In this document: positions 41,742 through 60,296 of the stretch, in pieces
Numbering within the stretch: the stretch's first letter is position 1
Layout of the letters: each line of letters starts with the position of its first letter
DNA from: Planctomycetota bacterium
GTDB taxonomy: Bacteria; Planctomycetota; Brocadiia; SM23-32; JAKLEA01
Reading direction: 5' to 3'
Length of the DNA: 64,000 nucleotides
Assembly: GCA_022711755.1 (NCBI GenBank)
Contig: JAKLEA010000026.1
Location: 1 to 64,000, forward strand
Translations under genes and position numbers: made by a program
Notes under the pieces: generated by a model
Told to the model about the DNA's origin: nothing
Seen by the model: only the letters and a program-made list of their open reading frames with translations
Database searches by the model: none

Positions 41742-42470
41742 CTATTCAAGCCCTAGCATCGGCGGCAGTTGCGCCAGTGATGTTATGGTCAGGCAATTGG
41801 CGGTCTGCTCTCCCCGTCGGTCAAGCAAAATTGGAATCATCCCCGCCGCGCGCGCCCCATCCACGTCCTCTGCCGGACGGTCGCCCACAAGAATTGCCCT
41901 CTCGGCCATAACCCCTGCTTTTGCCAGGGCCGCCCGGAAGATTGCCGGATGCGGTTTCAGATAGCCCTCATAACTGCTTATGGTCACAGACTGGAAAGAA
42001 TCCGCAAGACCAAGCGCGGACAAGAGCTTTTCCAGCCTGCTGTCCCAGTTGCTGATGACGCCAAGATGAACGCGCGCGCTGCAAAGCGCTTCAATGGCCG
42101 GTTTCACGTCGGGATACATACTCCATGCGCTTCCATGAGCATAATATTCATAAAGTTCCTCAAACATCCGGTCATACAGGGCCGGGCCTTTCCCGCTCAT
42201 GATTCTGTCCACCAGTATTCGCCACCACTGCCGCCCACTCGGATCCGGGGGATGAAGATATTTCTCCGGACAACGCCTTGTTTCTTCAACAAGCTCGCGC
42301 CAGCGCATGCGGAAGAGTCTTTCCATTTCATCCGGCGCAATGAAAACTCCATATCGCGCGGCTACGCTGGAATATACCGTGCCGACGGGTGGTTCAGGAT
42401 ATATCAGTGTTTCCCCGGCGTCGAGAAACACAGCGTCTATTGCGATCCCTCCATTCAACAATATCGCCAT
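41742..42470 (-). CDS. HAD-superfamily hydrolase
   Basis: A 242-aa HAD hydrolase of the HDHD3/YjjG-like type. Motif I is FLDAGETL, with the nucleophilic Asp but Gly where the second Asp of DxD usually stands; motif II is the Ser/Asn region VISNWDS; motif III Lys is in YLKPHPAIF; motif IV is VGDRPAEDVDGA. A helical cap lies between I and II. It should be a small-molecule phosphatase, though loss of the acid/base Asp suggests altered chemistry. I chose ATG 42470; the frame starts at 42521. It lies 94 nt after the GT-C/TPR cluster on the same strand and converges with the vWA gene. Confidence 0.87.
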   Translation of the reverse strand: MAILLNGGIAIDAVFLDAGETLIYPEPPVGTVYSSVAARYGVFIAPDEMERLFRMRWRELVEETRRCPEKYLHPPDPSGRQWWRILVDRIMSGKGPALYDRMFEELYEYYAHGSAWSMYPDVKPAIEALCSARVHLGVISNWDSRLEKLLSALGLADSFQSVTISSYEGYLKPHPAIFRAALAKAGVMAERAILVGDRPAEDVDGARAAGMIPILLDRRGEQTANCLTITSLAQLPPMLGLE

Positions 42471-42564
42471 GTCAACCCGCCTGCGGATGGTCCAACCACA
42501 ATACGACTGAGAGTATTCCACAACCGCACACGAACAGCCGCCGCTCCTGCGCTTCTAAGCACGA

Positions 42565-45500
42565 TCATTTCCCAGTTTTTTTCGCTTCTAACACCTTGCG
42601 GACCTCTTCAAGCGTTCTTTGCGCAGATTGTGCCCAGCTTTCCCTGGTTTTCGCATTGCTTATGCAAAGCTCCAGATATCGCTGGGCGTCTTCGTAGCGT
42701 CCTGCGGCATGAAAAATGATGCCGCAGTGGTATGCCATGACCGGATATTGATATGAAAGTCCTGCGACTGGATCGAGCACTCTGGCGGCCTCGGCATGCT
42801 TTCCGGTCTTGTAAAGTATCCACGCAAGCGTGTCTGCAATCGCCGGACTGCCGGGAGAATACTGCCGCGCGATACGCGCAAGCCTCTCCGCCTCTTCATA
42901 CTGTGCCATATCGCAGAGATAGTATGCAAGGTTGTTTAGCAAAATGACGTCTTCCGGGTTATAGCTCAACCCCTGCCGCGTGAACGTGACGGCCGCCCGC
43001 AGGTCGCCCTTGGCGGCGTACATCTCGGAAAGAAGCCGGATCAGGACGATCTTGCGACTTTGCTCGCGCCTGGCCCATTCCCGCATCGCTCGCTCCGCCT
43101 CCTCGAACCTGCCAAGTGATTGGCAACATAAACCATAGTTGATCATCGCCATATCAAACTCTGGATACTCGTTTAGCAACGCTTCAAGAATCAGCAGGGC
43201 ATCGCCAGAGCGCCCCTGCTTGAGCATTACTTCAGCCATGACCAGCCTGGCTCTCTTGATTACATCACGCTCGTTGGGAAAGACCTTGATGATGGATTCC
43301 GCGAGCCGCAGGGTTGACTCGCGAATGTCATACTGATGCAAGAGGTCCATCGCCGCCACATAAGCCAGAGGATAAGGGGCGTTGGCCGCAAGGCGACGGC
43401 CGATAACCAACTGCGCCAGCAGAGCGGCTTCCTCGTCAGTACCTGCGCCGGAAACCGCCCGGGCCAGCGTATGGATACTCACCTTTGGAAGCCCGTTCCT
43501 GCACGCCTCCTTCAGAACCGTCTGCGCCTTCTCCTTCCTGCCGGTCTGATAGAAAAGGATAGAGATCGCACAAAGAACAGCCTTGTCATTTCTATTCGCA
43601 AGGACAAGCGGACGCAACAACATCGCAGCCGCCTCATGTTTCCCGCCGGCGAGCATGACATGAGCAGTCGTCAGAAACGCCCATCGCCCAATGTCGTTCA
43701 TAAGAAGCGGCCTTGCCATATTGCTCAGCACAGGCTCGATATTTCCTTTTTTAAGTCCATTGCCTGTCTCCAGGATAACATCTCGCGTGGCGCTAAGCGC
43801 GCCCTTGCCGGCGGTGATCAATCTCTTGGGATCGCCGGCAGCGCTCACGGACACCATCAATTCATACTGGACCTCAGGTCCGGGCAAGCGCAACATAAAG
43901 CCCCCGCCCATGACGATCGCGACATGAGTGCCGAACATGTACTTCCCGGTATGATAAAGTGAACGCAACCATTCCTGCGCCCCGCCGTATCCCGCAAGAC
44001 TGTCTGCGGTCCGCGCAAGATAGAATCCCCCGAATTCAATCTTTTCTTTCTCCGCGGCAGCGAGCCATTCATTTACATCCGACTCCAACAGCGGCATGTC
44101 AATGCAGGGCGCTTTCAGCGCCCATGCCGTAAGGTCGGGTTCATCACTGAATATAAATATATTATTGCGCATGTTCAATTTCTGTTTAAGCTTGTCCATT
44201 TTGTCAACGTCCACCCTCTGCCGTGTGACGCTGATCTGTCTGCTCAGGAGCGGGATGGCCCCCATCAGCACTAGAATTGCCGCAATCCCGTATCTGAAGG
44301 CCGGACCTGCCATCGGATTGTTCCACAGCGCATGGAAGAATCCCTTCTGCCTGCTGACCTCGGCTTCCTCCTCTGCCTTATCTGTCGCAAGCACACCCCT
44401 GCTTAGCGACAGACCGACGACCTGGCCTGCGGCCAGCGCCATAAAAGGCAGGAGCGCCGCCCCTTCGATCGGGTCCCCCATCGTCAGCCCCTGCTGGAAA
44501 ATGAAGCCGGCAATTCCGATGGTGAAAGGAAAAAAGAAACCTCTATACTTGCCGGTCCCAAGCTCGCCCGTCAGCATGAACGCAGCCGCAAGGCACAACA
44601 CCAACGCCCCCCCCCAGAAGAGCACGCTCCACATCCCTGCGCCGGACAATATCTGCGAGAGGTTTAAAAACATCCGCTCCAGATGGTCGGGCGCAGAACC
44701 GAACAACTGCGCAAGCACCGAATCGGATACCGGAGACGAACTCCTGAAGAAGGCGTCGCGATTGCCGAATGCCCCGTTGAGAAGCTCATACTTCCAGAGC
44801 GTGATCAACCCCGGATGCCCCGAAATCAACGCGTTTCGCGCCGGCCATGGAAGCAACGTCAAAAGGAGCCCTCCGGCCATTGCCGCGCGGTGCGTCCTGA
44901 AACCGGAATTTTCAGACGCCAGCAGCCAGACAGCCGTCGGCAGCACAATAAAGGCCATCGGCCACGAGCAGAGGCAGACAAGCCCGCCGCATATGCCCAG
45001 AAAGAAGAAATGAATCGGATGAGGCAATATCAATTCTTCGGACTTGCCAGACTCCGAATCGCGCGACTTGGAAATAAAACAGTCCGCATACATGCACATG
45101 TACAAGACAAAGAACACAGAGGTGAATATCGCGGGCGACCCGCTGAACGCCGCGCGCGCGGCAAAATAGCTCACGGAATAGAACGCAAGAGCCATGCCCG
45201 CAGCAAAACGATTGCGCCACTTCAGCGCCAGATAGTAGGTCAACCACGCTGAAACAAGCCAGAATGCCCCGCCTGCAAAGGGGATGACGCTTTCTTTGAC
45301 TCCGGTGAACGCGAAAAGCGTAGATAGCGCCATGGGATACAGCGGCGCGGTGGCCAGGTCTGGATGATTACGAATCATGATCTCTGAACCTGCCGCATCG
45401 CCCCCGCCGGATTTAATAAAATACATGTCAATAGGTTTTATGATGTTCGTGCTGAAACGCCCGGTTTCATAAATGTTTCTAGCGACGTCTGCGCTTCGGC

Positions 45501-46086
45501 GCGCAAGCTCCCCCTTGATTATCCTGTCCTCGGATGTAGGGAACTCCCGCACGAACGCGACTCCTATCGCAAGTGCTGGGAGAAAAAGAATCCCTGCCCA
45601 TGCGACGACAAGCTGTGCGATCTGGTTTGCGTTAACCTTGCTCTCTGTGTCCAGCAACGGCGCAGTCAGAAAGTTAAATACAGCGTCCGTCAGGTTGCTC
45701 AGAATTCCCGGAACCCGATCCGTCTTCTCCAGACTCGCGGCGCGTCGCCGTTCCGCCGCCGCGAAGAAGAAACGGTTCACCCATCGCTCCATCCTGCCCG
45801 CAATTCTCTGAGCCCGCTCCAGGGAAAGACCCGGCGCAGCCGGCGCGGCGTCTTCATCAATTTCAGATGTCCGGGACATGGCCGCCATGCGCTCAATCCG
45901 GCGCTCGCGTCTCCAGCTAAGCCATCGTGACAACCCGGTCCAACTGTTCTCAACAAGCCTCAGCAATGCCTCTATCAACGCGGGGAATAATCCGAGAATC
46001 CGCGCCACGAATGAACTCTCGCCGTCATAGCCGTCCGGATCGCGCCCACGGCGCGGCCTGAATGAACAGGATGGCTTGCCAGTCAT
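42565..46086 (-). CDS. Giant GT-C-like membrane protein with TPR domain, paralogue 5 of 5
   Basis: A 1,173-aa protein, last of five tandem paralogues. A basic, arginine-rich cytoplasmic segment (1-150) precedes TM1; the first external loop starts REFPTSEDR (about residue 178), then a long A-x-x-A-R-N stretch and TAPLYPMAL. About ten further helices follow, then a soluble domain with FSDEPDLTAWAL, and TPR repeats over roughly the last 400 residues (for example LLNNLAYYLCDMAQYEEAERLARIARQ). The acidic loop after TM1 and the PxYP motif are as in PMT/ArnT GT-C enzymes. I chose ATG 46086, 28 nt after the previous stop; the frame runs to 46188 inside the neighbour. Confidence 0.82.
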   Translation of the reverse strand: MTGKPSCSFRPRRGRDPDGYDGESSFVARILGLFPALIEALLRLVENSWTGLSRWLSWRRERRIERMAAMSRTSEIDEDAAPAAPGLSLERAQRIAGRMERWVNRFFFAAAERRRAASLEKTDRVPGILSNLTDAVFNFLTAPLLDTESKVNANQIAQLVVAWAGILFLPALAIGVAFVREFPTSEDRIIKGELARRSADVARNIYETGRFSTNIIKPIDMYFIKSGGGDAAGSEIMIRNHPDLATAPLYPMALSTLFAFTGVKESVIPFAGGAFWLVSAWLTYYLALKWRNRFAAGMALAFYSVSYFAARAAFSGSPAIFTSVFFVLYMCMYADCFISKSRDSESGKSEELILPHPIHFFFLGICGGLVCLCSWPMAFIVLPTAVWLLASENSGFRTHRAAMAGGLLLTLLPWPARNALISGHPGLITLWKYELLNGAFGNRDAFFRSSSPVSDSVLAQLFGSAPDHLERMFLNLSQILSGAGMWSVLFWGGALVLCLAAAFMLTGELGTGKYRGFFFPFTIGIAGFIFQQGLTMGDPIEGAALLPFMALAAGQVVGLSLSRGVLATDKAEEEAEVSRQKGFFHALWNNPMAGPAFRYGIAAILVLMGAIPLLSRQISVTRQRVDVDKMDKLKQKLNMRNNIFIFSDEPDLTAWALKAPCIDMPLLESDVNEWLAAAEKEKIEFGGFYLARTADSLAGYGGAQEWLRSLYHTGKYMFGTHVAIVMGGGFMLRLPGPEVQYELMVSVSAAGDPKRLITAGKGALSATRDVILETGNGLKKGNIEPVLSNMARPLLMNDIGRWAFLTTAHVMLAGGKHEAAAMLLRPLVLANRNDKAVLCAISILFYQTGRKEKAQTVLKEACRNGLPKVSIHTLARAVSGAGTDEEAALLAQLVIGRRLAANAPYPLAYVAAMDLLHQYDIRESTLRLAESIIKVFPNERDVIKRARLVMAEVMLKQGRSGDALLILEALLNEYPEFDMAMINYGLCCQSLGRFEEAERAMREWARREQSRKIVLIRLLSEMYAAKGDLRAAVTFTRQGLSYNPEDVILLNNLAYYLCDMAQYEEAERLARIARQYSPGSPAIADTLAWILYKTGKHAEAARVLDPVAGLSYQYPVMAYHCGIIFHAAGRYEDAQRYLELCISNAKTRESWAQSAQRTLEEVRKVLEAKKTGK

Positions 46087-46114
46087 GCTGGATCGGATCA
46101 GGCCATTTTTTGTG

Positions 46115-49100
46115 TTATTCCGGTTTCTTGTTTGCCTGTTCCAGGAGTTCATTAGCATTGTCCAGCCATTCTGTTCCCACCTCAGCATCCTGAACAGCCT
46201 CCCGAAGATAGAAACGGGCTTTCTCAGGTTTATTGATGCCCATCAGTATCACGCCATAGTGATAACAGATCGTCGGATTGCCCGGCAACAGCCTTTCAAA
46301 AGGCTGCAGAACGGCCTCCGCGTCTGTTTGCTTCCCAAGCTTGTGCAAGACCCAGGCAAGCGTATCCCTGATGTGTATGTTATCCGGCTCTTTCGACAGC
46401 AATGCCTGGGCAGTTGATTCCGCCCATTGCACATTCGCCTCGTTGTCAGACTCGGAGTAAAGGAACGCAAGGTTGTTCAGCAGAATCACGTTGTCGGGAT
46501 ATCTGGCAAGCCCATCCCTGCATGCCTCGATGGCCGCTTTCAGGTCTCCGCGTCTTGTCCGCAATTCGGACAGAAGCCCGTAGTAGCTTGGTCCGCGCTT
46601 CTCTTCCAGCACGATCCTTTCAATCGTGCTGTCTGCTTCATACGGCATTTTTGCGTCGTTGTAGGCATAGGCAAGAAGCTTGTGCAATTCGAGCACAAGA
46701 GGAAACTCTTTGATGGCCGTCTGTAAAACCTGGATCGCTTTCTCAGGCTGCTTCTGACGCAAAAAAGCCCCCGCCAGAATCGAATAAATATGTTTTTTCG
46801 TTTCACCTGCTTCAGGCATTGACTTCAACATGCCTTCAGCAGCGATGATCGCGTGATCGTACAATCCCGCGGAATAATAACGCTGCGCCTCGCGCAGCTT
46901 CACAACGCCATACGGTTGACCCATTCTCTGGTCTGCCATCGCCGCAAGGCGGATGGCGTTGACTGCTTGATCCTTCTTCCCCTGTCGGGCCATCAGGAGA
47001 GCCAGCGTCTCGGGATTGAGCATTACCTTGGGGCTTATGCGCCTGGCCTTCGCGTAAGCTTGTTCAGCCTTGCTGAACGAACCCTTCCATGCATATACGC
47101 GCATCATGCGCGCCTGTATCTCAGCGTTGCGGGGAAAGACCTTTGCTAATCTCTCGCCCCAGAGCGCCGCAACGTCCAGATTTCTTTGATCTGTAAGAAC
47201 ATCCAGCCAGCGTGTCACGATTGACCCGAGGGAATCCTCCCCCCGGACGTACAACCAGACAGACGCAAGCCGGCACGGATCCCCGGTCTTCATTCCCAGT
47301 ATGATGTCGGAACGAACATCGGAAAGCAGTCTTACCGAGCGCTGGTATCCCGCTTGCGCCAGTCTTGCATAGAGGTTGCCCGTCGCAGGCTCGAAAACCG
47401 GTTCGCTGCCCTCGCCAGGAATCTTGAACGGTCGCCTGAAGTTCGCGCCAACTCTTGACGGTGGAACCGGAGCCGTGTCTGCAACAAGGCCGAATGGAGT
47501 ATAAATCGCGGCAAGCCAGCGGCAGGCATCAAATCCTGATGCCATCCCCGGAGGCGAACCTGCCAGAAAAACTCCGCCAAAACCAGCGCCGGATTTCTCA
47601 ATGGCCTCAACCATGTCCTTGTAATCGCCATACAAGACCGGCAAACGCGCGCTTGTCTTCCCGCCAAACCACGCAAGCCACTCCGGCTTGTCAGAAATAT
47701 ACACCACACCGGAAGCCGGTTCAGGTTTCAACTCTGAAATCCCCTTTTCGAGAACAGCCATCTGCTCAGGCTTCCCCGGCAACCTTACCGTCTTGCCAAG
47801 AAGGGCGACATACTGAACCGAAGCGATAACGACAAGAACGACTCCAAGTCCCCAGCGAATTCCCAACGCCTCCCAGTCCAGGCTCCAGACGCTGCGATCT
47901 CTCTTTCTGCGGGATGAATGCTCGCGCCTTGCCGGGGCGAACCTCTCGATCGCATCCGCGCCATACATGGCTGCGCAGAAGGACGCCAGCGGAGAAATTG
48001 CCACAAATATGGGATCAGGTGTGGTAACCACGTTCAGTAAAATGATCAGTAACCCTATGCCGATATACAATGGCGCAAGAAAATCGTTCCGCAATTCTTT
48101 CACCAGCCCACCTGAAATGAGCAACCCGACGAACATGACAAAAGCCGCCACTCCAGCCTGCTGCATTGCAATATCAAGCCTCAGCGATATGCCTATAATA
48201 AACCTGCGGGCCAGTTCCCATGCTCCATAGACAGCGCAAACCAGCGCCGAGTCAGACGGGGGATGCATTACATTGGATAGATCCGATATCGGAATAAACA
48301 CGCCGGCGAGAACATTAAAAGCCCCAAGCGTGGCAAATGGGCTTCCCGTCTCCGCCCACTGATACACACAGGACGGCGCAGCAACCGCAAGAAATCCCCA
48401 AACCATCCATGAAGCCCTGACCTTCCCGCCCCCGCGGATGAAGATCCATACTGCGGCGGGCAGCGTTATCAGTATCATCATGTAGTTGGAAAAGACAAGC
48501 AATCCTGCTATAACGCCCACCATAGCTGGGGTTACCGATACAGGCGCGATAATCTCCCCCTTAGCATCCTCAGCGTTTATGCTCTTAGCGGTTTCAATCA
48601 GGCATCCGGCATAGATAACCAGCAGAAGCGCCAGCCATTGCGAAATCCCCCCGTCAAATGCCGTCCTTAACATATTCGAATTTAATGAATAAAAGGCGAG
48701 CGCCAGCGCTGCAATGCGCCTATCATTCATCTTGAAACCAAGCCTGTATGTCAACAACGCAGTCACAAACCACAGAAGACACGACAAAGCTATCACCACC
48801 GTATCGCTCCGCCCGAAAAGAGACATCGGCAGCGACAATACAAGCGGATATATCGGAGGCATGGAACGCTCGGGATGATCCGGCAGTTTCCGGACGGATG
48901 CCAGGGATAGCGGATCAACCACGCTGGTAACGTAACCCCGCCCCCCGGAAAGATTTCCAGCTATCTGAGCGCAGTACATCGCGGAATCGGACGACAGCAC
49001 CCGACTTTCAGTAGTCGGGAAGTTTTTGACAAATGCAAACCCCAGTATCATCAGCGGCCCGAAAATAATGGAGAACCATGCTACGATCAGCAGCGCGGTC

Positions 49101-49540
49101 TCATTAATGCTGATCTTCTTTCCCCTCTTATACAGAGGATATACAAGAGTGGTCTCAACCGCCGTCTGAAGCCCTTTGAAGAATTGGACCAGGGAATGGC
49201 CGGGCGTCCTGTGTTTGTGTCTCCTCCTATCGGACTTGACCTTATCAGCATCTCCGTCCGGCATGATCAGCCGTCGCGGCTCTCCCGGTTCCCGCCTTCT
49301 AAGAGCCTTTCGCCGCCTTTCGAGCCGCTTAATTCCTTTCCTGATCGTGATTTCAACTGCTGTAATCGGTTTCGAGATCGCCTGGCTTATGAATTCAATG
49401 ATCAGGAAGAACAGCGGTTTGCGCGACGAACGCCTTCGCTTTCTCCTGGGTCCTTCCTCGGAGAGACCTGCCAGGGGCGCGTTCCGCATCGAAGCGCCGG
49501 ACCAGCCGACCCAGCGATTTCCACCTGACGATTTGGTCAC
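46115..49540 (-). CDS. Giant GT-C-like membrane protein with TPR domain, paralogue 4 of 5
   Basis: A 1,141-aa protein. The N-terminal 115 residues are very basic (GPRRKRRRSSRKP and similar). TM1 leads into KNFPTTESR (about residue 171), AQIAGNLSGGRGYVTS and PPIYPLVLSLP, then multiple helices. The soluble domain contains YISDKPEWLAWF, and the C-terminal third is TPR (LLNNLAFLYSESDNEANVQWAES, IRDTLAWVLHKLGKQTDAEAV). The GTG at 49540 overlaps the previous stop (GTGA); a later ATG at 49489 is possible. It shows the same domain order as its neighbours, and its loop Glu is the likely catalytic acid. No sugar donor or acceptor can be named. Confidence 0.82.
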   Translation of the reverse strand: MTKSSGGNRWVGWSGASMRNAPLAGLSEEGPRRKRRRSSRKPLFFLIIEFISQAISKPITAVEITIRKGIKRLERRRKALRRREPGEPRRLIMPDGDADKVKSDRRRHKHRTPGHSLVQFFKGLQTAVETTLVYPLYKRGKKISINETALLIVAWFSIIFGPLMILGFAFVKNFPTTESRVLSSDSAMYCAQIAGNLSGGRGYVTSVVDPLSLASVRKLPDHPERSMPPIYPLVLSLPMSLFGRSDTVVIALSCLLWFVTALLTYRLGFKMNDRRIAALALAFYSLNSNMLRTAFDGGISQWLALLLVIYAGCLIETAKSINAEDAKGEIIAPVSVTPAMVGVIAGLLVFSNYMMILITLPAAVWIFIRGGGKVRASWMVWGFLAVAAPSCVYQWAETGSPFATLGAFNVLAGVFIPISDLSNVMHPPSDSALVCAVYGAWELARRFIIGISLRLDIAMQQAGVAAFVMFVGLLISGGLVKELRNDFLAPLYIGIGLLIILLNVVTTPDPIFVAISPLASFCAAMYGADAIERFAPARREHSSRRKRDRSVWSLDWEALGIRWGLGVVLVVIASVQYVALLGKTVRLPGKPEQMAVLEKGISELKPEPASGVVYISDKPEWLAWFGGKTSARLPVLYGDYKDMVEAIEKSGAGFGGVFLAGSPPGMASGFDACRWLAAIYTPFGLVADTAPVPPSRVGANFRRPFKIPGEGSEPVFEPATGNLYARLAQAGYQRSVRLLSDVRSDIILGMKTGDPCRLASVWLYVRGEDSLGSIVTRWLDVLTDQRNLDVAALWGERLAKVFPRNAEIQARMMRVYAWKGSFSKAEQAYAKARRISPKVMLNPETLALLMARQGKKDQAVNAIRLAAMADQRMGQPYGVVKLREAQRYYSAGLYDHAIIAAEGMLKSMPEAGETKKHIYSILAGAFLRQKQPEKAIQVLQTAIKEFPLVLELHKLLAYAYNDAKMPYEADSTIERIVLEEKRGPSYYGLLSELRTRRGDLKAAIEACRDGLARYPDNVILLNNLAFLYSESDNEANVQWAESTAQALLSKEPDNIHIRDTLAWVLHKLGKQTDAEAVLQPFERLLPGNPTICYHYGVILMGINKPEKARFYLREAVQDAEVGTEWLDNANELLEQANKKPE

Positions 49541-52500
49541 TTCCTGATGCCTTTCCTGAGCTTGTTTAAAGTTTGATTCGCCTGTGGGACCCAATATTCT
49601 TCTCCATTCGCCCTCTTTACCGCGTCCTCAAGTAATCTGATCGCAGCCGGGCCATTATTGTTGTTTTCAAGCACGCATCCATAATGGTATAGAATGAGCG
49701 GTTGACGCCACATCACCGGACGCATCGGGGCGAACAAGGCATCTGCCTCCTTCATCCTCCCGCGTTTGAAGATTATCCAGGCCAGCGTATCCGCATAGTG
49801 AATGTTGCTCGGGTCGGCAATATGCGCTTTCCAGGCGGCATTTTCAGCGGTTTCAAGATTGCGCTCGTTAAATGAAAGCCAATAGGCCATCACGTTCAGA
49901 ACAGAGGGATTATCGGGGGTTTTCTCCAACGCCTTGACGCATAGGGCTTCGGCGCCTTTGAAGTCTCCTGATCTGGCGCGCACATCCGCCAGAAAAGCAT
50001 AAAAGTCCGGTTGATCCATCAATTCGGCTGGCATTGATTGCAATGTCCGGGCAGCCTCAGAATGCCGTCCGGCAGCGGACAACGCCCCGGCCAGTCTCAG
50101 CCTGGCTGGGATCCATTCCGGGCAGGTCGCGACAAGCCTCTCAAGCAATGTTATCGCGCCTTCGCCATCGCCTTTCATCGCGAGAAGCTCAGCATGGCGG
50201 ATCGAGAATTGCCGCTTGAATTCATCATCATCAGGGAAGAGATTCTCCAACCTTGCGGCAAGCCTTCCGGCAAACTCAATGGCTCCGGCATCAATGCAGC
50301 AATCCAGGACCTTAATATAGGCCATCGGGAAATCCGTCCCCTGGGCCAGTCGTATCCGGACCACGTCCGTAATGGCTGCCGCCGCTTTTTCGAAGTTATC
50401 GCTGAGGGCATGAGCTTTCAGCCGCGCCTCGGCAAACGCTTGCGAGCCGGGCAGCGCCTCAAGGATATCCACGGACTGCTCCGCCAACTTAACCTTGTCA
50501 AAAGCAAGATACAATTCCACAAGACGCGCGCGCGCGGCGGAGCTTCGCGGCAACGCCCGCGCCGCTTCCCCTGCCAGAGACATTGCGTCGGCATATCTCC
50601 CCCTCGCCTCCAGCAGACTACCAAACCGGTATAGGAACCATGCGTATTGCTCGCCAAAACCGGACCACCAGGCCAGCGGGTAAAAGAGGACATGCGCACG
50701 CCCGCCCTTAATGCCATCCACTATCGCCGCGTGGCAGAAAACAAACTCCTTTGCTCTATAGATCAGATCCTCCTTGGCCGATTCCATAACAAACGTCAGG
50801 TGCGGCAGCCCGCTTCTGTTCAACTCACGAATCTCAGAAACCGGGATAAAAACATTGTCCGATGTTCTCCTGCCCGCTACCGTTTTTGTCGAGGCCAATT
50901 CAGCCAAGCGAGCCTGAAACTCGCCGCTCAATCCCGTCGGAACTGCGCCGGACAGAAATATCCCCTTGATATTCACACCCTTCAATTCAAGGTTATCTTG
51001 AAGACTTACCAATTCTCCCATGAAGACCGGCAAGGGATATGCGGCGCACCTTGTGAACCAGGAAACCCACTCCGGCGCGTCTGTAGCTACGGCGCACTCA
51101 GATCCCAATCCTTCCACCGCCTTCAAGGCGGACGGCACGCCGCGCGGCGATAGCGGATCATCACTCGCCACCGACAGGAAAATCCACGCGAGCGCCACAA
51201 TAAGACACACGATGCCCCATTCGAGCGCCAGCTTTCCACGCTCATACCAGATTCGCATGCTCCCGGACATGCGCGGGATCTGTATGGCTCTGGCCCTGCG
51301 CATCAGCGAGGCAACCCCTTCCGCGCCCAATACCGAAATAATCGGCGACAAGGCGATGAGAGCGCCGGTATCCATTCCGCCTGAAGCCGTCCATACGGCA
51401 ACAAGAATCACTCCGCAGGCTGGAATCCCCCTTCTGAAAAGTTCCCGCCCCTTCAGCTTTCCCATGAAGAAAATCGCAACTGACATGAGGGCGCAAACCG
51501 GACCGACTCCCAAGGCGATCTCCATCAGCATCGGATGAAGGTTTTCCGGAAACTCCGAGGAACATGCTGAGATACGCCGCCATAGAATCCAACCGACACC
51601 TACCTCGCCTTGCGGTGAAGCCGGCAGATGCCTTCCACCGCTGAAGGCAATCGCGAAATCCCTGAACGGTTCTGAAGACGCGCCTCCTTGCCAGGCAACC
51701 AATGCCAAGGGGGCGACAAGCAGGCCAGACAATATGCCCCATTTGGCAATCGCTGGAACCTTCATAGCCAGGATCGCAACCAAGACGGGCAGGATAAACC
51801 AGACCATCGCATAATCGCTTAAGAACGCAAAAGAAGCGCAAACTCCGGCCAAGATTCCGACAGCAAAAGTCGTTGCCCGCGCGGAAGCATCCACTGGAAG
51901 AGAAGATCGCCGTATAAGTTCCCAGAAACAACCCGTAAAAAGAATCGCCCACAACCCAGCCATCGGCGTCCCAAGCCCGTCAACAGCATCTTCCGCAATC
52001 CCAGGCCCGGAACAAAACATGATCATCGCCAATAGCCCGGCGCCGAAACCATCGTAATGTTTCACTACCCAGAACACTGCCCATGCAGTCAGCACATATC
52101 CCGCAATGGACGCGCCGGCAACAGCAATGTCCGGAGATAGTTTGAACTTACCGGCCAGCCATAATGGCGGGACAAGTTCCACAGAATGCAGTAACGGTCT
52201 TTGCGCAGCGGATTCCGCCCAGCCTTCTCCGAAGTTCAAACCCTTTCCCTCTGCGAGGCGCCTGGCCGCCAAGGCGTCAAGCGTAGCGCCACGGTCATTC
52301 AAGGCGTAGACCTGGTCGGTGGGCAGTCGTTTAATCCCGCCTATGTATATGGCGATGCAAGGCAGAAACGCAATCAGCGCCCACGCGACCGCAAGAAATG
52401 CGATTGCGTCCACGCCCATATCTTTCCTCTCAGCGTCAAACGGCAGCGTCAATATGCCATATATAAAATTGGCAACAGGTCCGCGCTCCGTTTTCCTCCT

Positions 52501-52752
52501 TCTTGACGGGGCAATGCGCGCAGATTTCTCTTTATCCCTGTGGCGTCTTTTCCGCCTCATAGGCGAGCTAATCGCTGCCAGAACGGCTTCGATAATCCAC
52601 TGAAAACCTTCAAAGAATCGTGAAAGCAAACCTTTTCGCCTGTGTGAGCGCCTGCCTCCTCTGGCCCATGCGCATGGACTATCCCCACGGGCTGCCAACA
52701 TGCTGCGCCGCTTCATGCGCGACCCGTCGCCGGGGAGAAAAACGCCAGTCAT
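49537..52752 (-). CDS. Giant GT-C-like membrane protein with TPR domain, paralogue 3 of 5 (divergent)
   Basis: A 1,071-aa protein, the most divergent of the five. After a basic N-terminus comes TM1 and IKRLPTDQVYALND (about residue 140), where Asp takes the place of the loop acid, then LAARRLAEGKGLNFG; the P-x-YP motif is altered to VELVPPLWLAG. Membrane helices continue to about residue 520, the soluble domain has VATDAPEWVSWF, and TPRs fill the C-terminal 400 residues (LNVMAYWLSFNERNLETAENAA, YADTLAWIIFKRGRMKEADALF). ATG 52752 overlaps the preceding stop by ATGA. Its altered donor/lipid-site motif suggests another substrate or a non-catalytic partner role. Confidence 0.8.
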   Translation of the reverse strand: MTGVFLPGDGSRMKRRSMLAARGDSPCAWARGGRRSHRRKGLLSRFFEGFQWIIEAVLAAISSPMRRKRRHRDKEKSARIAPSRRRKTERGPVANFIYGILTLPFDAERKDMGVDAIAFLAVAWALIAFLPCIAIYIGGIKRLPTDQVYALNDRGATLDALAARRLAEGKGLNFGEGWAESAAQRPLLHSVELVPPLWLAGKFKLSPDIAVAGASIAGYVLTAWAVFWVVKHYDGFGAGLLAMIMFCSGPGIAEDAVDGLGTPMAGLWAILFTGCFWELIRRSSLPVDASARATTFAVGILAGVCASFAFLSDYAMVWFILPVLVAILAMKVPAIAKWGILSGLLVAPLALVAWQGGASSEPFRDFAIAFSGGRHLPASPQGEVGVGWILWRRISACSSEFPENLHPMLMEIALGVGPVCALMSVAIFFMGKLKGRELFRRGIPACGVILVAVWTASGGMDTGALIALSPIISVLGAEGVASLMRRARAIQIPRMSGSMRIWYERGKLALEWGIVCLIVALAWIFLSVASDDPLSPRGVPSALKAVEGLGSECAVATDAPEWVSWFTRCAAYPLPVFMGELVSLQDNLELKGVNIKGIFLSGAVPTGLSGEFQARLAELASTKTVAGRRTSDNVFIPVSEIRELNRSGLPHLTFVMESAKEDLIYRAKEFVFCHAAIVDGIKGGRAHVLFYPLAWWSGFGEQYAWFLYRFGSLLEARGRYADAMSLAGEAARALPRSSAARARLVELYLAFDKVKLAEQSVDILEALPGSQAFAEARLKAHALSDNFEKAAAAITDVVRIRLAQGTDFPMAYIKVLDCCIDAGAIEFAGRLAARLENLFPDDDEFKRQFSIRHAELLAMKGDGEGAITLLERLVATCPEWIPARLRLAGALSAAGRHSEAARTLQSMPAELMDQPDFYAFLADVRARSGDFKGAEALCVKALEKTPDNPSVLNVMAYWLSFNERNLETAENAAWKAHIADPSNIHYADTLAWIIFKRGRMKEADALFAPMRPVMWRQPLILYHYGCVLENNNNGPAAIRLLEDAVKRANGEEYWVPQANQTLNKLRKGIRK

Positions 52753-55700
52753 CGGACTCCAGCCTCGCAATCCTCAAGAGCCTGTCGCGCCTGCTTCAGC
52801 CATATTGCGCCTAATGGAGCCTTCTCAATAGCGGCTTTGAGTAATCTGGCTGCGGCGTCATTCCGGCCCATGCCGGCCAATATCGAACCGGCATGAAAAG
52901 CAATTTCCGGCTCCCGCCATGCCGCCGGAAAGAACGGCTTCATTACTTCTTCAGCCTCTCTGGCGCGTCCCTGGCGCATCAGCCCCCATGCAAGCGTATC
53001 GGCGAAGCGAATGTCCGACGGTTGCCTCGCAACAAGGCCGCGCGCTATAGATTCGGACTCCTTCAACTGGCTCGGTGATGCTCCTTCTGACAGCATCGCC
53101 GAGGCCATGTTATTCAAAAGGACAAGGTCATCCGGAAACGCGGCAAGACCCTCCCGACTGATCTTGATGGCCGCCTCCCGATCTCCCTTCTCGCCGCACA
53201 TGGCCGCCAGACACCTGAAGACAAGCAGTTTCTCACCATCCGTCTTCGCCCAGAGCCGGTACTGCGTTTCGGCGTTCTCCCAATCGCCTATTTTCCGATA
53301 TGACACCGCCAGATCGAAGCGCGGTTGTTGCCAGTCGGGCCACTTGGACACCAACTCGTTCAGGATTGGAATGGCATCCGCGTACCCGCCGCCGTTCGCA
53401 TAAGCCACAGCCAGCAGATATGATGCCGTCCTGTGAACCTGCGGATTCTCTGGAAACATGTCACGCAATGTATTGGCAATCTTGATCGCGTGCCGGTGCA
53501 GGCCGACCTGCCCGCATAGCATCACCTGGTTCATTCGCGCCTTCAGCAGTGGTATCTTCCGATTGAGCCATATCCTCCCGAGCAGGTCAACGCCTTTCTC
53601 AGCGTCTTCCACGCGCCCAAGTCTGACAAGAGTCTCAAGATAAAGGGGCCAGTCGAGGCGAACATTGATGTCCTTGGAAAGGGCTGCCCGGAAGTGCCTG
53701 TAAGCTCCTGAGAAATCCCCGGATACCGCCAGCGCCCGGGCATATTCCGCCCTTGCCCGCGGGTAATCAGGGGAAAGTCTCACCAGGTGACCCGCCTTTG
53801 CTATCCCGCCCGCGAAATCCCGTTGAAGCAGATGATACCTTACCTGGAAGAGCAGAAACTCCTGCGCAGGCTCCTCATACCCGAGGAACCTGGCCGCAGA
53901 GAAGAAAACGCCAAGCGGATCACGCTCCCGCAGTCCGCGAGCCGCCAGAGTAAAGGACCACCGCGCATACCTGAACATTTTCAAAACTTCGTCCCGCCCC
54001 ATCAGCAGCGCGTTCGGCTCCCTGTGCCCGGCTACTACCGGCCTTCCGGCAAGGCGATACATCATCCCGAAGCGGGAGCCGGTGACAACAAACGTGTTGC
54101 AGACCGGCGAAACATTTGAATAGAGTTTATCCAGCCAGTCCGCTCCGAAGTATGAACTCATGGCCTCGCCCGGCTGTGATAACAGAAAACCATCAATCGA
54201 GCGTCCTTCTCTTCCCGCAATCATGGCCGCTTCCGCAAGGTCCCCGGAGAATACCGGAAGCCTGACAACCGGCATGTCCGCATGCCATGCCACCCTTTCC
54301 GGCATATCGCTTGCCAACAGTTGCCGTTTCACCCCCATCTTCGCAAGATTGCGTTTCAGGAAGTCAACCTCAGGTGGTGTTTTACCCGTATGCCATCTGG
54401 GACGATCCTGACCGGTCAGCGGCATCAAACCTATCACGGCCAGACCGACGCACGCCATCCCATGCCCGACAGGCCATCCGTAGCGCAGGTTCCAGATGGC
54501 GACCTTTGTTCGCGCATTCAGGGAGCGAATTTGCTTTCTCCGCTTCAACCTTTCAGCAAGCGCCGAGAATGTTCCGGCTCCTCCAATCGCAAAAAGCGGA
54601 GCAGCCATTGAGAGTTCTATCCCTATGTCCGATATCAACGCGCTCCAGAGCGCCGTCAGGATCGCCCCGACAACCAACGGCATCAGGAAATATGCCTGCG
54701 CAGTTGAAGATGATCCTGCTGCGCTTCTATGCCTCCGCCGCCTTGAACCGGCCAGTCTGAACGTATTGGCGACAAACGCGGCACCGGCCACCAAGCCGAC
54801 CTGCAACCATAAAACCATCAAAGCCTTCAGCAGGCTGTCCGGAAGTTTCAAGACAATTCTAAACAGGTATATTACGCAATTTCCCAGAACCGATTCACAA
54901 GGCAACCAGCCAAGCCGGTATACCGCCGCCGAGGGAACAAGCGCGTCGCCAAGCATCTCCTGTAACGCGATCCCCGGCCATGACAGCAGAGAAACACCGG
55001 GAAGCGTGACCGAATATACGGCAAGCGGCATCAGCATGATCGCCGCTCCGACGGCAATCGTCACCGGCATGCGCCCCCCTTCGCGGACAGCCCGCGCGCC
55101 AACCGCAATGGCCAGCGGAACAGTCAGCAACAAGGTTGCCACACTGGCGACAGCCATCAGCCCGATCGCCAACCCAAGGGCCAGACAATCAACAATCATC
55201 CACGATCCCGCCTGCGTCTTATCCCGGCGGAATAGCGGAATCAGGATCGCCGAAGCAAGGCTTAGAACAAGCGCAAGCTGAAACGCAAGAAATGACGCCC
55301 TTACTCCCGATAAAGACGCTCGAAGGAAATATCCGTTCGTCGCGATAAGCCCCAGCGCGAAGAAAGCTGCGATCCTGTCCCCCCACCGCATGACGACACC
55401 ATAAACGATCCAACCGGTCATGAGCCACAGGATGGCCCCAAGCCCCAGAATCACCGTGTCAGCCTCGATGTCCCGGAACCAACCCATCAGCGCCGAGATA
55501 AACAGCGGATATCCGGGAGCGTGTCTGGACATCCAATGCCCCCCGATACGCGGTTGATATCGCATGGAAAGGGGGTCAAGAACATATGTGGTCAGTCCCT
55601 TTCCATTCTTGCAGTTTCGCGCGGTCTGCGCCATATCCATGGCCAGCGGCATCGTCAGTGATATCGAGTCGGCGGTGGGAAATTCCCTGGCCCATCCGCC

Positions 55701-56624
55701 AAGAAGAATCGCAGCAGGCAGAACAATGATGCCCATCCATGCCACAAGAAGCCATCCTGCTTCAGTGGTCTTCAGCTTGCGTCCCTGCGGGAACAATGGC
55801 GAAATCAATATGTTATAAGCCTTCTCCGCCGGATTGACGCTCTCGCTGCGTTCCCTTCTGCGCTTCACGCGCTTGACAATCCGTCGAGGCTCATCAGCCT
55901 CCTCGTCAGATTCTTCACCGGATTCATATTCCCCGTCGCCGGATTCGGCAACGCCCTCATCAATCTCCGGCTTATCAGAAGATTCGCGGTCTTCTTGATT
56001 GTCCGGTTCATCTGCGTCTTCCCTTTTCGAGTCAATGTCTTCGTCTGCCGGAGCATCCGTCTCAATGTCTCCGATATCCTCCTCACGTTCTTCTTCCGCA
56101 GGCTCTATCTCCGATGCATCATATTCTTCCTCTTCAAAGTCCTCTTCATCGTCAATATCCTCTTTATCAGGCGGCTCGCCTTTCTGATTGTTTTGCTGTT
56201 TTCTTTCTTCGAATCGTCTGGCTGCCTCAAGAATCTCCTGTTGAACCGTCAACCTCGGTCCCGAATACGGTTTCTTCAGCTTCACAGCAGGTTTCTCAGG
56301 CGTCGCGTCGCCTGATTCCTGGCGCTCAGGAATGTCATGGCGGATCCTCCTGCTCCGATGATGACGATGATGCCTCCTGCTGCTTCTCCTGCGGGAAGTA
56401 TGCCCCTGCGGCGAGAAGAAATCCGCCAACAGTCTGAGATAGAAGTCAATGCTTAACAGTGAAGCGGGATTGAATCGTCTCCTGCTGGGGTTGGAGCAGC
56501 TTTTCCTGCGCCGCCCCCGTCTGCGGGGTTCCTCCCGAAGCAATTCGGGAGAATCCCCCCCCCCGTTTCGCTCGGGCTGGACAGGACGCTTATCACCCGC
56601 CGTTGGCTCATTCGGCATGGTCAT
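52749..56624 (-). CDS. Giant GT-C-like membrane protein with TPR domain, paralogue 2 of 5, long charged N-terminus
   Basis: A 1,291-aa protein, the largest of the set. The first 260 residues are a disordered polyampholyte: an Arg/His-rich block (HTSRRRSSRRHHRHHRSRR), then a long Glu/Asp-rich block, then KRVKRRRERSESVNPAEKAY. TM1 precedes AREFPTADSISL (about residue 313), AQTARNCKNGKGLTTY and SRHAPGYPLFIS, a near-consensus GT-C first loop. A soluble domain with LASDMPERVAWHADMPVVRLP and C-terminal TPRs follow. It starts at ATG 56624 behind a GGGGGA site, 33 nt after the first paralogue. The acidic tract may bind partner proteins, or the basic tails of the other four. Confidence 0.83.
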   Translation of the reverse strand: MTMPNEPTAGDKRPVQPERNGGGDSPELLREEPRRRGRRRKSCSNPSRRRFNPASLLSIDFYLRLLADFFSPQGHTSRRRSSRRHHRHHRSRRIRHDIPERQESGDATPEKPAVKLKKPYSGPRLTVQQEILEAARRFEERKQQNNQKGEPPDKEDIDDEEDFEEEEYDASEIEPAEEEREEDIGDIETDAPADEDIDSKREDADEPDNQEDRESSDKPEIDEGVAESGDGEYESGEESDEEADEPRRIVKRVKRRRERSESVNPAEKAYNILISPLFPQGRKLKTTEAGWLLVAWMGIIVLPAAILLGGWAREFPTADSISLTMPLAMDMAQTARNCKNGKGLTTYVLDPLSMRYQPRIGGHWMSRHAPGYPLFISALMGWFRDIEADTVILGLGAILWLMTGWIVYGVVMRWGDRIAAFFALGLIATNGYFLRASLSGVRASFLAFQLALVLSLASAILIPLFRRDKTQAGSWMIVDCLALGLAIGLMAVASVATLLLTVPLAIAVGARAVREGGRMPVTIAVGAAIMLMPLAVYSVTLPGVSLLSWPGIALQEMLGDALVPSAAVYRLGWLPCESVLGNCVIYLFRIVLKLPDSLLKALMVLWLQVGLVAGAAFVANTFRLAGSRRRRHRSAAGSSSTAQAYFLMPLVVGAILTALWSALISDIGIELSMAAPLFAIGGAGTFSALAERLKRRKQIRSLNARTKVAIWNLRYGWPVGHGMACVGLAVIGLMPLTGQDRPRWHTGKTPPEVDFLKRNLAKMGVKRQLLASDMPERVAWHADMPVVRLPVFSGDLAEAAMIAGREGRSIDGFLLSQPGEAMSSYFGADWLDKLYSNVSPVCNTFVVTGSRFGMMYRLAGRPVVAGHREPNALLMGRDEVLKMFRYARWSFTLAARGLRERDPLGVFFSAARFLGYEEPAQEFLLFQVRYHLLQRDFAGGIAKAGHLVRLSPDYPRARAEYARALAVSGDFSGAYRHFRAALSKDINVRLDWPLYLETLVRLGRVEDAEKGVDLLGRIWLNRKIPLLKARMNQVMLCGQVGLHRHAIKIANTLRDMFPENPQVHRTASYLLAVAYANGGGYADAIPILNELVSKWPDWQQPRFDLAVSYRKIGDWENAETQYRLWAKTDGEKLLVFRCLAAMCGEKGDREAAIKISREGLAAFPDDLVLLNNMASAMLSEGASPSQLKESESIARGLVARQPSDIRFADTLAWGLMRQGRAREAEEVMKPFFPAAWREPEIAFHAGSILAGMGRNDAAARLLKAAIEKAPLGAIWLKQARQALEDCEAGVR

Positions 56625-56657
56625 GAAACCATGTCCCCCGCATCAGGGACGCTGGAG

Positions 56658-59600
56658 TTATTGCTGCTCCTCGACGGGTAATGGCTCCGCCTTCACGCCC
56701 AGCTTTGTCGCCAGTTCCTTTGCCTGCGGCAGCCATGCCGGTGTTTTCCTGGCCGCCTCGATTGCCATTTTCACGAATCGCCCCGCCTTTTCCTTGTCTC
56801 CCCTGGCGTCATGAATAACGGCGTAGTGATATGCCGCTTCGGGGTTCCTCCAAAGAACCGTTTCCTGCTTGGCCAGGATTTCCGCAGCCTCATCCAGTTT
56901 CCCGGCTTTGAACAGCACCCAGGCAAGCGTGTCGTCGCTCTCGATCGTGCCCGGCATTATCCTCGCCGCGTTTCGGGCGTGCTTCTCCGCCTCTTCCAGC
57001 TTCACCCCTTCCTCGGCGTAATGTTTTGAAAGCAACAACAGGAGGCGAACGTCCCACGGAGACTTTCGAAGCCCGTCCAGACAGGCCTTCTCCAGTTGCT
57101 CCCCGTTGTCATTCTTTGCATAGACTGCTGCCAGAAGCGCGTAAAGCTCCTGTTTCTCCTCCCGGGTATGCGCCCATTCACGATACAGGTTGATGGCCTC
57201 CTGGTACTGCCCGGTCTCAGCGCAAAGGTCCGCAAGACGCTTCCTGCCCTCGCGCCACTGAGGCCACTTTGCATACATCTCCCGCACAAGGTTAATCGTC
57301 TCCGCCGCGCGGCCGGATTCCAGCGCGCTTTCCGTCATCAGCCGTCCGATCTGCTGCTGCAGGAGAACGTCATCCGGAAACTGGTCAATTATCTGCCTGC
57401 CAAGATCAAGCACGTCGTCGTGCAATCCGACCTGGAAGCACAGGAAAATCAGTTCCTGGAGCGGTTTTGGATAAGGCTGCGGCTGCTGGCTCATACGCTG
57501 GAGCAGCGACTTGCACAACTGAGCAGCCTGCTTCCTTCTGCCCAGGCTGGCCAGCGTCTTGGCAAGGGTATAAGTATCCACCGGGGCGGACAACGCCTGC
57601 GCTCTTCTGAATTCATTAAGCGCCTCCGGGTATCGTCCCAGCCGGGCATATAGCATTGCCAGAAGGCTTCGCACCTGCCCGTGGTCCGGGGCCAGGTTAT
57701 CGGCCACCCACTGAGCCCTTTCCGCCGCAAATTCGTATCCTTCCAGCGTGGTCTGCAACTGGATAAAGAGAATCTGCGCCCGCAAGAATTCCTTTTGCTT
57801 TACCGCATAGGAAAGCGCCTCGCCGGACCGGGCGAAATCGCCCTTGTTGAACGATTCCACCGCCTTTCGGAAAGCGGTTACACGGTCGTCCTTGCTGATC
57901 GCGTCCATGATGTCCAGCAGCACAACTGCGCCGACCCCCTTGTCCTGCTGTCCCTCCTCCTTCTCATCCTCCGGAAGCCTGCCCGCCGCAAGCCTGTAGA
58001 TCATGCCGCGGCGCGAGCCTTTCACTGCCTTGGTGTTTCGAAACACTCCGTCAGGAACATAGGAATAAGCCAGCCACGAACAGAAAGGAATCCGTGACGC
58101 GGGATCGCCGTCCCTGAGCAGGAAGAAGCCTGCTATGTCCTGCTGATTCTGGCGCGCCACGTCAAGAACCTTGTCCAGGTCCACGTCGCGGAAAGGCGCT
58201 CGCACGCACGGTTGCTTGACATACCACGACGTCATCTCCGGCAGATCGCAGACGATGATCTCTCGGTCAACCTTGCGTTTGATCAATTGCGCATCAAGAA
58301 AGTCGAGCGTCGGCAGCTTGTAGCGCGCCTGAGACGTGGTGGCAAATCCGCCCAGGAAAGGCAGAGTCGCCACGAACACGAGCGTCAGACACAATCCCCA
58401 TCGCAATGCAGGCCCGCTCCATTCCATCTGCCACGCAGGATGCTCTTTCGGCCTGTCCAGAACGTCTCCGACCAACTGCGCCGCCCCTAAGACCACCAGT
58501 GGCACGAAGATAGTCAATTCACGGGTCGGGCCCGCCGTGAATGCCGCCAACACGCAGTATATCGCAATACTAATATAAAGCGGCAGATAGAAATTGCGCC
58601 TTGAGCGCTTTGTAAGCGCTTCGCCCAGCGCATGAGCGGCGAACAGCACCCCGCCGGCCAGCCCGCAACAATTGATGAAAGCCACCATCACATTGTCTGA
58701 GTTCTTTCGGGCCTTCCTCAGAATTCCGGGAAACTGGTTGACAATCAGCTTCCAAAGGCTTCTTCCGCCCTCTGTCTCTCCAAAATACGTCATCCTGAGA
58801 TATTCATCCCGCAGCCATCCGCCTTGAACGTCGGACAGGAGGGTTCCCGTGGCGATGTTGAACAACGGATTCCCGGTCTTCATAGACACCCAGACCAGGT
58901 AAGGCGCCACAAGCAGCGTAAAACCCACGAACAGGCCGACCGCGCCAATCCATCTGGCCCGCTTCTGGAAAACCAGGACCGCCAGAATCGGCGGCAGAAC
59001 AACGATCAGCATCGCATAGGAAGTCAGCACCATCACGCCGGCCAAAGCCCCCAGGAAAAACAGGAATGGGGTCGAAAGCTTGGGGATATCGCTGTCTTCA
59101 ACAACGCCTTCTTCAGGCGGGGACGTCATGGCAACGTGACCCAACATCCATAGAAAACCCGTCATCAGCGCGACTTTGAAGCACAGGTCCAGACCATCAG
59201 TCGCGGCGGTGATAAACGTCAGATTCACAGCCATGAACGCAAGCGCCAGCCCAGCCACGCGCCTGTCCCCCCACTTGATAATCATGGCATAGGTCAACCA
59301 GACCGCAATCAACCAGAAAACACAGGAAACCCCTATCACGGTTGCATCAGACGCGCCGAATATCTTGAAAAACACTCCAAGAATGATCGGGTATATCGGC
59401 CGTTTATGAATCGCGGGAGTATCAGGCATCCTGCCCGTCACGGCCAGCACGTAAGGATCCATGACATCCGTCACAAACCCCCTGCCATCCGCAATGTTGC
59501 GGGCGACCTGGGCCTGATCCATTACGCCGTAATCCCTCAACCTCCATGATTCCCCCGCTGTGAACTCTCTGCTCAACGAAAGGCCAAGCAGAAGCAGCGG

Positions 59601-60005
59601 ACCGCCTACTATCAATCCCCACACGACCATCAACCGGGCAATCTGGTTGAAACCAATGGCGTCCTGCCCGCTGTAAAGCGGAGCAATGACCATATGCTCG
59701 ACGAACTGAAAAGCCTTCTCAGCCGGGTTGGTCGGCTTGTCAGGCGCTATTTCGCGGGCAATGATTCTCCCCTCGATCGGAGATGCCGCCTTTTCAACTG
59801 CTTTCTTCAGCGCGTCTGTGACGCGTTCCGTCGCAGGCGCGGGATTAGGTTCAAGCTCCTCGTCGTCCTTGCTCCCGGCGGCATCAGGGGACGAACCTCC
59901 CGCGTCTTCGTCATTCGCGCCGGCATCCGGGATAGCGTTCTTATCGTCTCGTCTTAAAGCTCGAACAAGCCCGGCCCATCTTGAGCCGAAAAAACGCATA
60001 GCCAT
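56658..60005 (-). CDS. Giant GT-C-like membrane protein with TPR domain, paralogue 1 of 5 (first of operon)
   Basis: A 1,115-aa protein that opens the cluster. Its N-terminal 95 residues are acidic and Ala/Pro-rich, ending NPAEKAF as in paralogue 2. TM1 is about 126-145; the loop has SREFTAGESW (146-154), ARNIADGRGFVTD (168-180) and KRPIYPIILG (201-210). Further helices run to about residue 560; a soluble domain has IIVCDLPEMTSWYVKQP near 585; TPRs occupy about 700-1100 (EALNEFRRAQALSAP, SDDTLAWVLFKAGKLDEAAEIL). GGAGCGAGAGAGA precedes the ATG. It is divergent from the glucan phosphorylase gene. By analogy with PMT/TMTC proteins I propose polyprenol-phosphate-sugar-dependent glycosylation outside the inner membrane. 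Confidence 0.83.
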   Translation of the reverse strand: MAMRFFGSRWAGLVRALRRDDKNAIPDAGANDEDAGGSSPDAAGSKDDEELEPNPAPATERVTDALKKAVEKAASPIEGRIIAREIAPDKPTNPAEKAFQFVEHMVIAPLYSGQDAIGFNQIARLMVVWGLIVGGPLLLLGLSLSREFTAGESWRLRDYGVMDQAQVARNIADGRGFVTDVMDPYVLAVTGRMPDTPAIHKRPIYPIILGVFFKIFGASDATVIGVSCVFWLIAVWLTYAMIIKWGDRRVAGLALAFMAVNLTFITAATDGLDLCFKVALMTGFLWMLGHVAMTSPPEEGVVEDSDIPKLSTPFLFFLGALAGVMVLTSYAMLIVVLPPILAVLVFQKRARWIGAVGLFVGFTLLVAPYLVWVSMKTGNPLFNIATGTLLSDVQGGWLRDEYLRMTYFGETEGGRSLWKLIVNQFPGILRKARKNSDNVMVAFINCCGLAGGVLFAAHALGEALTKRSRRNFYLPLYISIAIYCVLAAFTAGPTRELTIFVPLVVLGAAQLVGDVLDRPKEHPAWQMEWSGPALRWGLCLTLVFVATLPFLGGFATTSQARYKLPTLDFLDAQLIKRKVDREIIVCDLPEMTSWYVKQPCVRAPFRDVDLDKVLDVARQNQQDIAGFFLLRDGDPASRIPFCSWLAYSYVPDGVFRNTKAVKGSRRGMIYRLAAGRLPEDEKEEGQQDKGVGAVVLLDIMDAISKDDRVTAFRKAVESFNKGDFARSGEALSYAVKQKEFLRAQILFIQLQTTLEGYEFAAERAQWVADNLAPDHGQVRSLLAMLYARLGRYPEALNEFRRAQALSAPVDTYTLAKTLASLGRRKQAAQLCKSLLQRMSQQPQPYPKPLQELIFLCFQVGLHDDVLDLGRQIIDQFPDDVLLQQQIGRLMTESALESGRAAETINLVREMYAKWPQWREGRKRLADLCAETGQYQEAINLYREWAHTREEKQELYALLAAVYAKNDNGEQLEKACLDGLRKSPWDVRLLLLLSKHYAEEGVKLEEAEKHARNAARIMPGTIESDDTLAWVLFKAGKLDEAAEILAKQETVLWRNPEAAYHYAVIHDARGDKEKAGRFVKMAIEAARKTPAWLPQAKELATKLGVKAEPLPVEEQQ

Positions 60006-60119
60006 TCTCTCTCGCTCCGAACTGGAAAAGAGTTAATGAATCTACTTTTGCGCGGGCCAACGCCGACGCTTGAATCCGAACAGGCGCATTTACCTTCCGC
60101 TCCTGTATTCGGAATGAAG

Positions 60120-60148
60120 ATTATAATGTCAATCCTCAATAGTTTCCA
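60120..60148 (-). promoter_or_regulatory. Candidate promoter of the GT-C/TPR cluster
   Basis: On the minus strand a perfect TATAAT (60120-60125) with a weak TGGAAA (60143-60148) 17 bp upstream. It would give a leader of about 110 nt before the first giant gene. Confidence 0.4.
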
Positions 60149-60184
60149 TATTCAAATTACATTTGGCCGTTCGCCATTCAACCC

Positions 60185-60213
60185 TTGACGCGGGATGCCG
60201 CCACGCCTATGCT
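60185..60213 (+). promoter_or_regulatory. Promoter of the glucan phosphorylase gene
   Basis: TTGACG (60185-60190), a 17-bp spacer and TATGCT (60208-60213), giving a leader of about 77 nt that ends in the strong ribosome site AGGAGGAAAC just before ATG 60297. Confidence 0.55.
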
Positions 60214-60296
60214 TGTTCTCTGGGATGAAATTGATCATGTTCTTGTAAGCGCCGGCCGGCGCACGGGAATGCCATGCCGACGCGCCAGGAGGAAAC

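Follow-up and report, generated by a model that had tools for sequence, protein, structure and literature searches.

Two groups of described enzymes come closest to the proteins considered here. GT39/PMT_2 enzymes of the ArnT type (PF13231) combine a GT-C fold and many transmembrane (TM) helices with a PPxYP framework and a GT39-type soluble C-terminal domain, and structure-based work on GT-C/PMT enzymes has pointed to a loop 1 Asp, a donor-contacting Lys and a last-loop Arg that contacts phosphate (PMC7801869). Eukaryotic TMTC1-4 join a GT-C membrane module to extracytoplasmic C-terminal TPRs. We analysed a stretch of 64,000 nucleotides of a Planctomycetota genome (contig JAKLEA010000026.1, hereafter the window), in which five neighbouring genes encode proteins, P1-P5, resembling the first group in fold, TM helices, framework and soluble domain and the second in the union of a GT-C-type module with C-terminal TPRs, predicted to lie on the same side of the membrane. 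They differ from GT39/PMT_2 enzymes in the replacement of most active-site charges, an added TPR solenoid, a long charged N-terminus, predicted to be cytoplasmic, and an arrangement in five coupled copies. They differ from TMTC1-4 in lacking a DUF1736 match, the DD of loop 1 and the KET and ERxxY motifs, and in being most closely related to GT39/PMT_2 proteins of the phylum.

The initial annotation had described the locus as five tandem giant GT-C/TPR membrane proteins of a single domain order, and the open reading frames confirmed this. Five consecutive ORFs on the minus strand at 42565-60005 encode products of 1,071-1,291 aa. In each, a charged N-terminus precedes about 11 TM helices and a soluble domain, and TPRs form the C-terminal part. 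Pairwise identity among P1-P5 is 20-27% over the full length, bearing out the proposed divergence of the tandem copies. The genes are transcribed in the order P5, P4, P3, P2, P1, followed by a HAD hydrolase gene:

60006..60296, no strand: divergent intergenic region upstream of P5, with a DUF3417 gene on its opposite side
56658..60005, minus strand: P5, 1115 aa, first gene of the array; charged N-terminal region; GT-C module 57975-59702 including the soluble domain
about 56706-57797, minus strand: TPRs of P5, downstream of its GT-C module
52749..56624, minus strand: P4, 1291 aa; GT-C module 54036-55820 including the soluble domain; TPRs
49537..52752, minus strand: P3, 1071 aa; GT-C module 50830-52464 including the soluble domain
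46115..49540, minus strand: P2, 1141 aa; GT-C module 47417-49156 including the soluble domain; best PMT_2 match
42565..46188, minus strand: P1, 1207 aa; GT-C module 43870-45681 including the soluble domain
41742..42521, minus strand: HAD-superfamily hydrolase gene, downstream of P1

The five genes probably form one operon, because two junctions are 4-bp stop-start overlaps: the P3 start (ATG, 52752) overlaps the P4 stop in ATGA, and the P2 start (GTG, 49540) overlaps the P3 stop in GTGA. The gap between P5 and P4 is about 33 bp. The HAD hydrolase gene is possibly the end of the same operon. Some starts allow more than one choice: P3 has 1071 aa from an ATG with a ribosome-binding site and 1077 aa by the longest ORF, P2 has 1141 aa from GTG and 1159 aa from an upstream TTG (longest ORF), and the start of P1 is likewise uncertain, since initiation at the ATG at position 46086 would abolish the overlap with P2. 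The best sigma-70-like site in 60006-60296 lies at 60148-60120 on the minus strand, but site counts in this region equal chance. Beyond it, divergent from the array, is the DUF3417 alpha-glucan phosphorylase gene (60297-62852, plus strand). Elsewhere on the minus strand of the window, we noted a 1135-aa protein combining NPCBM, a hydrazine-synthase-alpha middle domain and cytochrome c (24613-28020), and two adjoining large proteins of 706 and 584 aa without Pfam match (30998-34869). Pseudogenes were considered for the array and rejected: all five ORFs are intact and longer than 1,000 aa, and Trp, Pro, Gly and soluble-domain residues are conserved in them.

Significant TPRs were detected in all five proteins (Pfam TPR_19 or TPR_14, E about 1e-14 to 2e-19), and fusion of TPRs to a GT-C head was thus borne out. 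The tail, with its invariant DTLAW cap, is among the best conserved parts of the five; each protein has a single DTLAW, located in the last TPRs, and not the repeated copies first reported. Other motifs held in part. A-R-N is exact in three of the five (AGN in P2, ARR in P3), P-x-YP is found in four (P3 has VPPLW), and F/LPT-x-[ED] in three, with LPTDQ in P3, the most divergent member, and FTAGE in P5. The P4 N-terminus extends over 268 aa and is acidic and Arg-rich. A family-averaged hydropathy profile gave 13 overlapping segments, merged by eye to 11 TM helices, and loops predicted to be cytoplasmic carry positive charge. By this profile and the positive-inside rule, P1-P5 would have a cytoplasmic N-terminus and would expose their soluble domain and TPR tail on the extracytoplasmic side.

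Modelling supports a GT-C fold for the array proteins, as had been proposed. An AF2 model of the P2 head, built from the five window sequences, was of modest confidence (pTM 0.66, mean pLDDT 58), and all 12 of its PDB matches at E<=0.001 were GT-C enzymes. These were archaeal and eukaryotic oligosaccharyltransferase subunits (AglB/STT3; 7e9s for AglB), ArnT (5f15) and ALG9 (9s6u), with TM-scores of 0.4-0.5 for this model of pLDDT 58. The hits listed for a full-length P5 model (pTM 0.36) were TPR or TPR-like superhelices and uninformative on the head. Profile comparison led to the same assignment. Aligned by hhalign with 13 canonical PMT_2 proteins of the phylum, the family gave a probability of 99.8% and E 7.7e-28 over 474 columns. 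Each of seven window-type proteins (P1-P5 and two paralogues described below) also matched the canonical PMT_2 profile individually, at E 1e-9 to 3e-26 (best domain). Since the 474 columns include the soluble domain, the domain with SDxPExxAW is the one that members of this GT39 subgroup normally carry at the C-terminus, and is not new. Matches to Pfam PMT_2 itself are weak: in the window proteins P2 reached E 4.9e-5 (score 24.0) and P5 3e-3 (18.1), both below the cut-off of 26.1, and in a genome-wide PF13231 scan P2 scored 26.6 and P5 30.9 (with neighbouring segments) against the curated cut-off of 26.1, with P1, P3 and P4 absent from the match list. The five genes thus encode a GT-C-type membrane module homologous to GT39/PMT_2, a GT39-type soluble domain and a TPR solenoid.

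To compare active sites, we built an alignment of the seven window-type proteins and 18 canonical PMT_2 homologues of divergent sequence. Among the canonical sequences, charge is conserved in six columns (13/17 to 18/18), which correspond to the residues of PMC7801869 and to neighbouring motif positions. In P1-P5, in that order, the first external loop (EL1) Asp (canonical 15/17) is replaced by L, S, G, L and G, the EL1 Arg/Lys (13/17) reads T, M, Q, H and K, and the TM4 Glu/Asp (14/18) reads A, S, T, A and L. The EL3 (loop 3) Arg/Lys (17/18) has become S, N, D, S and S, the PWxxRN Arg (17/18) R, Y, W, Y and W, and the last-loop Arg (18/18) I, P, G, I and R. The TM4 and EL3 charges are therefore lost in all five proteins, and the PWxxRN and last-loop Arg in four. 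Across P1-P5, 3 of 30 cells were kept in charged columns versus 57 of 90 in conserved uncharged columns (Fisher 3.8e-7, indicative only, the rows being related). An independent alignment that used 25 other PMT_2-type proteins encoded in this genome agreed, the canonical charges there being EL1 acid 20/22, TM4 acid 19/25, EL3 base 19/22 and last-loop Arg 20/21. P4 has none of the canonical active-site charges and no acid near the EL1 position, and P1 retains the PWxxRN motif only. Most canonical charged active-site residues are thus replaced in the aligned sequences of all five, and most of the basic residues that bind donor phosphate and sugar in an active GT39 enzyme (loop 3, PWxxRN and last loop) are lost.

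The initial annotation took the acidic first loop as the mark of active glycosyltransferases, a claim that fared poorly: F/LPT-x-D/E sits about 7-9 residues upstream of the GT39 catalytic Asp position, the column of that Asp holds no acid, and the other charges are mostly gone. The lack of a conserved first-loop acid, which that annotation had itself named as evidence against the claim, is largely what the alignment shows. An acid displaced from its usual place might rescue activity, and all five could then be GT-C glycosyltransferases with separate acceptors, using T-x-E/D or a shifted EL1 Asp/Glu. Such an acid is present at T-x-[ED] in three of the five and nearby in the remaining two; in P1, P2, P3 and P5 an acid is found no more than two residues away from the position of the canonical Asp; and the fold and the Pro/Gly framework are kept. 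EL1 is also the softest call of the alignment: in per-sequence profile alignment, an insertion of 1-2 residues brings an Asp from P2 and one from P5 into register with the canonical Asp, and the shift in P2 recurs in the same-genome alignment. We nevertheless consider this reading unlikely. The T-x-E/D site is out of register with the catalytic residue, and loss of the TM4 acid, the EL3 base and, in four proteins, the last-loop base would remain. Moreover, only two charged residues are invariant among the five GT-C modules, one an Arg of the cytoplasmic loop predicted between TM10 and TM11 and the other an Asp of the soluble domain; apart from these, no acidic or basic residue is invariant among the five in the membrane and extracytoplasmic parts of the module. 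None is common to the GT-C part of all seven window-type proteins. Judged from these residues, scaffold subunits are more likely than five sugar-attaching enzymes.

P5 retains the most active-site charge of the five, which raises a mixed array in which it would be the working glycosyltransferase and P1-P4 accessory, substrate-presenting proteins, as in a multi-subunit oligosaccharyltransferase or Pmt heteromers. It has the best score against the canonical profile (82 bits) and comes first in the coupled operon, and it keeps the last-loop Arg, the EL1 Lys and an Asp located two residues ahead of the canonical place. P5 lacks, however, the TM4 acid, the EL3 Arg and the PWxxRN Arg, which nearly all canonical relatives keep, and we regard this arrangement as quite improbable.

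Comparison within the genome suggests how the array may have arisen. Two more paralogues of the same architecture lie outside the window, C89 (L020:8152-11289) and C35 (L021:7132-10320). Both keep a Glu at the EL1 position; C35 also keeps the EL1 Arg and EL3 Arg, and C89 the PWxxRN motif. This mosaic retention, together with PWxxRN in P1 and the last Arg in P5, suggests that a more complete ancestor was duplicated and that residues were lost afterwards. In a tree of the seven members and six outgroups, the seven fall on one side of a branch (97/98), with their order of duplication not resolved. The genome (5.9 Mb) has 31 PMT_2 matches, a large GT-C-type set, and its 25 other PMT_2-type proteins mostly keep the active-site charges.

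The same genome encodes a separate family of six TMTC-like GT-C/TPR proteins of about 800-870 aa, in tandem sets of two and three and one single (L022:9727-14788, L023:5788-12723 and L024:5574-8006). Their motifs (DD in loop 1, HPLRxES, Lys and [DE]RYxY) are intact in five of the six, which keep DD, both Lys and the Arg; the single protein, at L024, has lost DD, Lys and [DE]RYxY. As a control, these proteins, at 24-34% identity, retain invariant H, R, E and D in the GT-C part. They resemble the array in their GT-C-type head, TPR tail and partly tandem arrangement, and differ in their smaller size (about 800 aa), mostly without a long N-terminus, and in their largely intact active sites. The parallel to TMTC O-mannosyltransferases drawn at first stands for the GT-C/TPR fusion, and the TMTC-like six, with DD, Lys and [DE]RYxY, are the closer bacterial counterpart. 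Membership of the window proteins in TMTC was rejected for want of DUF1736 and DD: DUF1736 (PF08409) had no match in them and none over cut-off in the whole genome, and the TMTC Pfam model matched neither the window family nor the TMTC-like six.

A profile of the five window TPR tails scored 69-155 bits (best domain) on the TMTC-like six, whereas the generic TPR proteins tested reached at most 58 bits in this genome and at most 93 bits in the class. By this measure the two sets of tails are specifically related. It is very doubtful that the GT-C module now only anchors an extracytoplasmic TPR scaffold in the membrane, or binds lipid or glycan for it, with no link to glycosylation: the eroded active site and the well-conserved tail and cap would fit, but the tail is related to those of TMTC-like GT-C proteins, most of them intact, and this relation points towards glycosylation.

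We then searched for the family in other genomes. No relatives of P5 were found in a collection of 85k species. A GT-C module profile yielded partial PMT_2 matches and no array, either in 74 other genomes of the class and 9 others of the order or in about 390 evenly drawn genomes of the phylum (the order, class and phylum sets overlap). Similar multi-paralogue arrays, which the initial annotation had proposed to look for in related genomes, were thus not found in these samples, and within them the family appears restricted to this lineage. A head-profile search of the phylum retrieved PMT_2 proteins from other genomes, most of which are shorter and have no TPRs. The best AccA matches of the genome studied here are at most 51% identical, the first from an unnamed bacterium and the following ones mostly from Scalindua/Brocadiaceae, as would be expected for a likely member of the Planctomycetota. 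The GT39-TPR fusion itself is not new, because GT39 heads with TPR-like tails occur elsewhere in the phylum (L112 and L115; TPR profile E 7.7e-22 for L115). These are single proteins, not a five-gene coupled array, and their active sites look canonical by eye. We found no papers on GT39-TPR proteins of Planctomycetes.

The explanation that we favour, and hold to be moderately probable, is a lineage-specific array of largely eroded GT39-derived pseudoenzymes. An active GT39 enzyme would have been duplicated in this lineage, with different active-site residues lost in different copies. The five would now be non-catalytic pseudo-glycosyltransferase subunits, produced together from one translationally coupled operon and assembling into a hetero-oligomeric membrane platform with an extracytoplasmic TPR scaffold, whose tails may recognise partner or acceptor proteins of the kind bound by the related tails of the mostly intact TMTC-like enzymes. 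Coupling of the genes adds to the likelihood that the products act together, as suggested at first. The observations that suggest a scaffold function are the loss of active-site residues and this coupling. We infer, with support decreasing in this order, that the proteins would be inactive, that they would form one complex and that they would serve glycosylation machinery. The possible 1-2 residue shift of the EL1 acid and the two basic positions kept in P5 speak against the pseudoenzyme reading. A more specific proposal, which we put forward tentatively and rate as rather unlikely, is that a five-subunit pseudo-GT-C platform organises or regulates the active TMTC-like glycosyltransferases through the shared TPR tail, most GT-C subunits being dead scaffold.

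Catalytically dead members are well known in kinase and protease families. For GT-C enzymes, a search of open-access papers gave no clear report of pseudoenzymes. If the favoured explanation is true, a whole operon of dead GT-C proteins, coexisting in one genome with mostly intact GT-C/TPR proteins that bear a related tail, would show that evolution can reuse the GT-C fold for structural purposes. Tandem 'PMT/TMTC-like' genes should accordingly not be assumed to encode glycosyltransferases without a check of the active site. If the tentative platform proposal is also true, this bacterium would glycosylate proteins with a machine whose GT-C subunits are mostly dead enzymes serving as scaffold.
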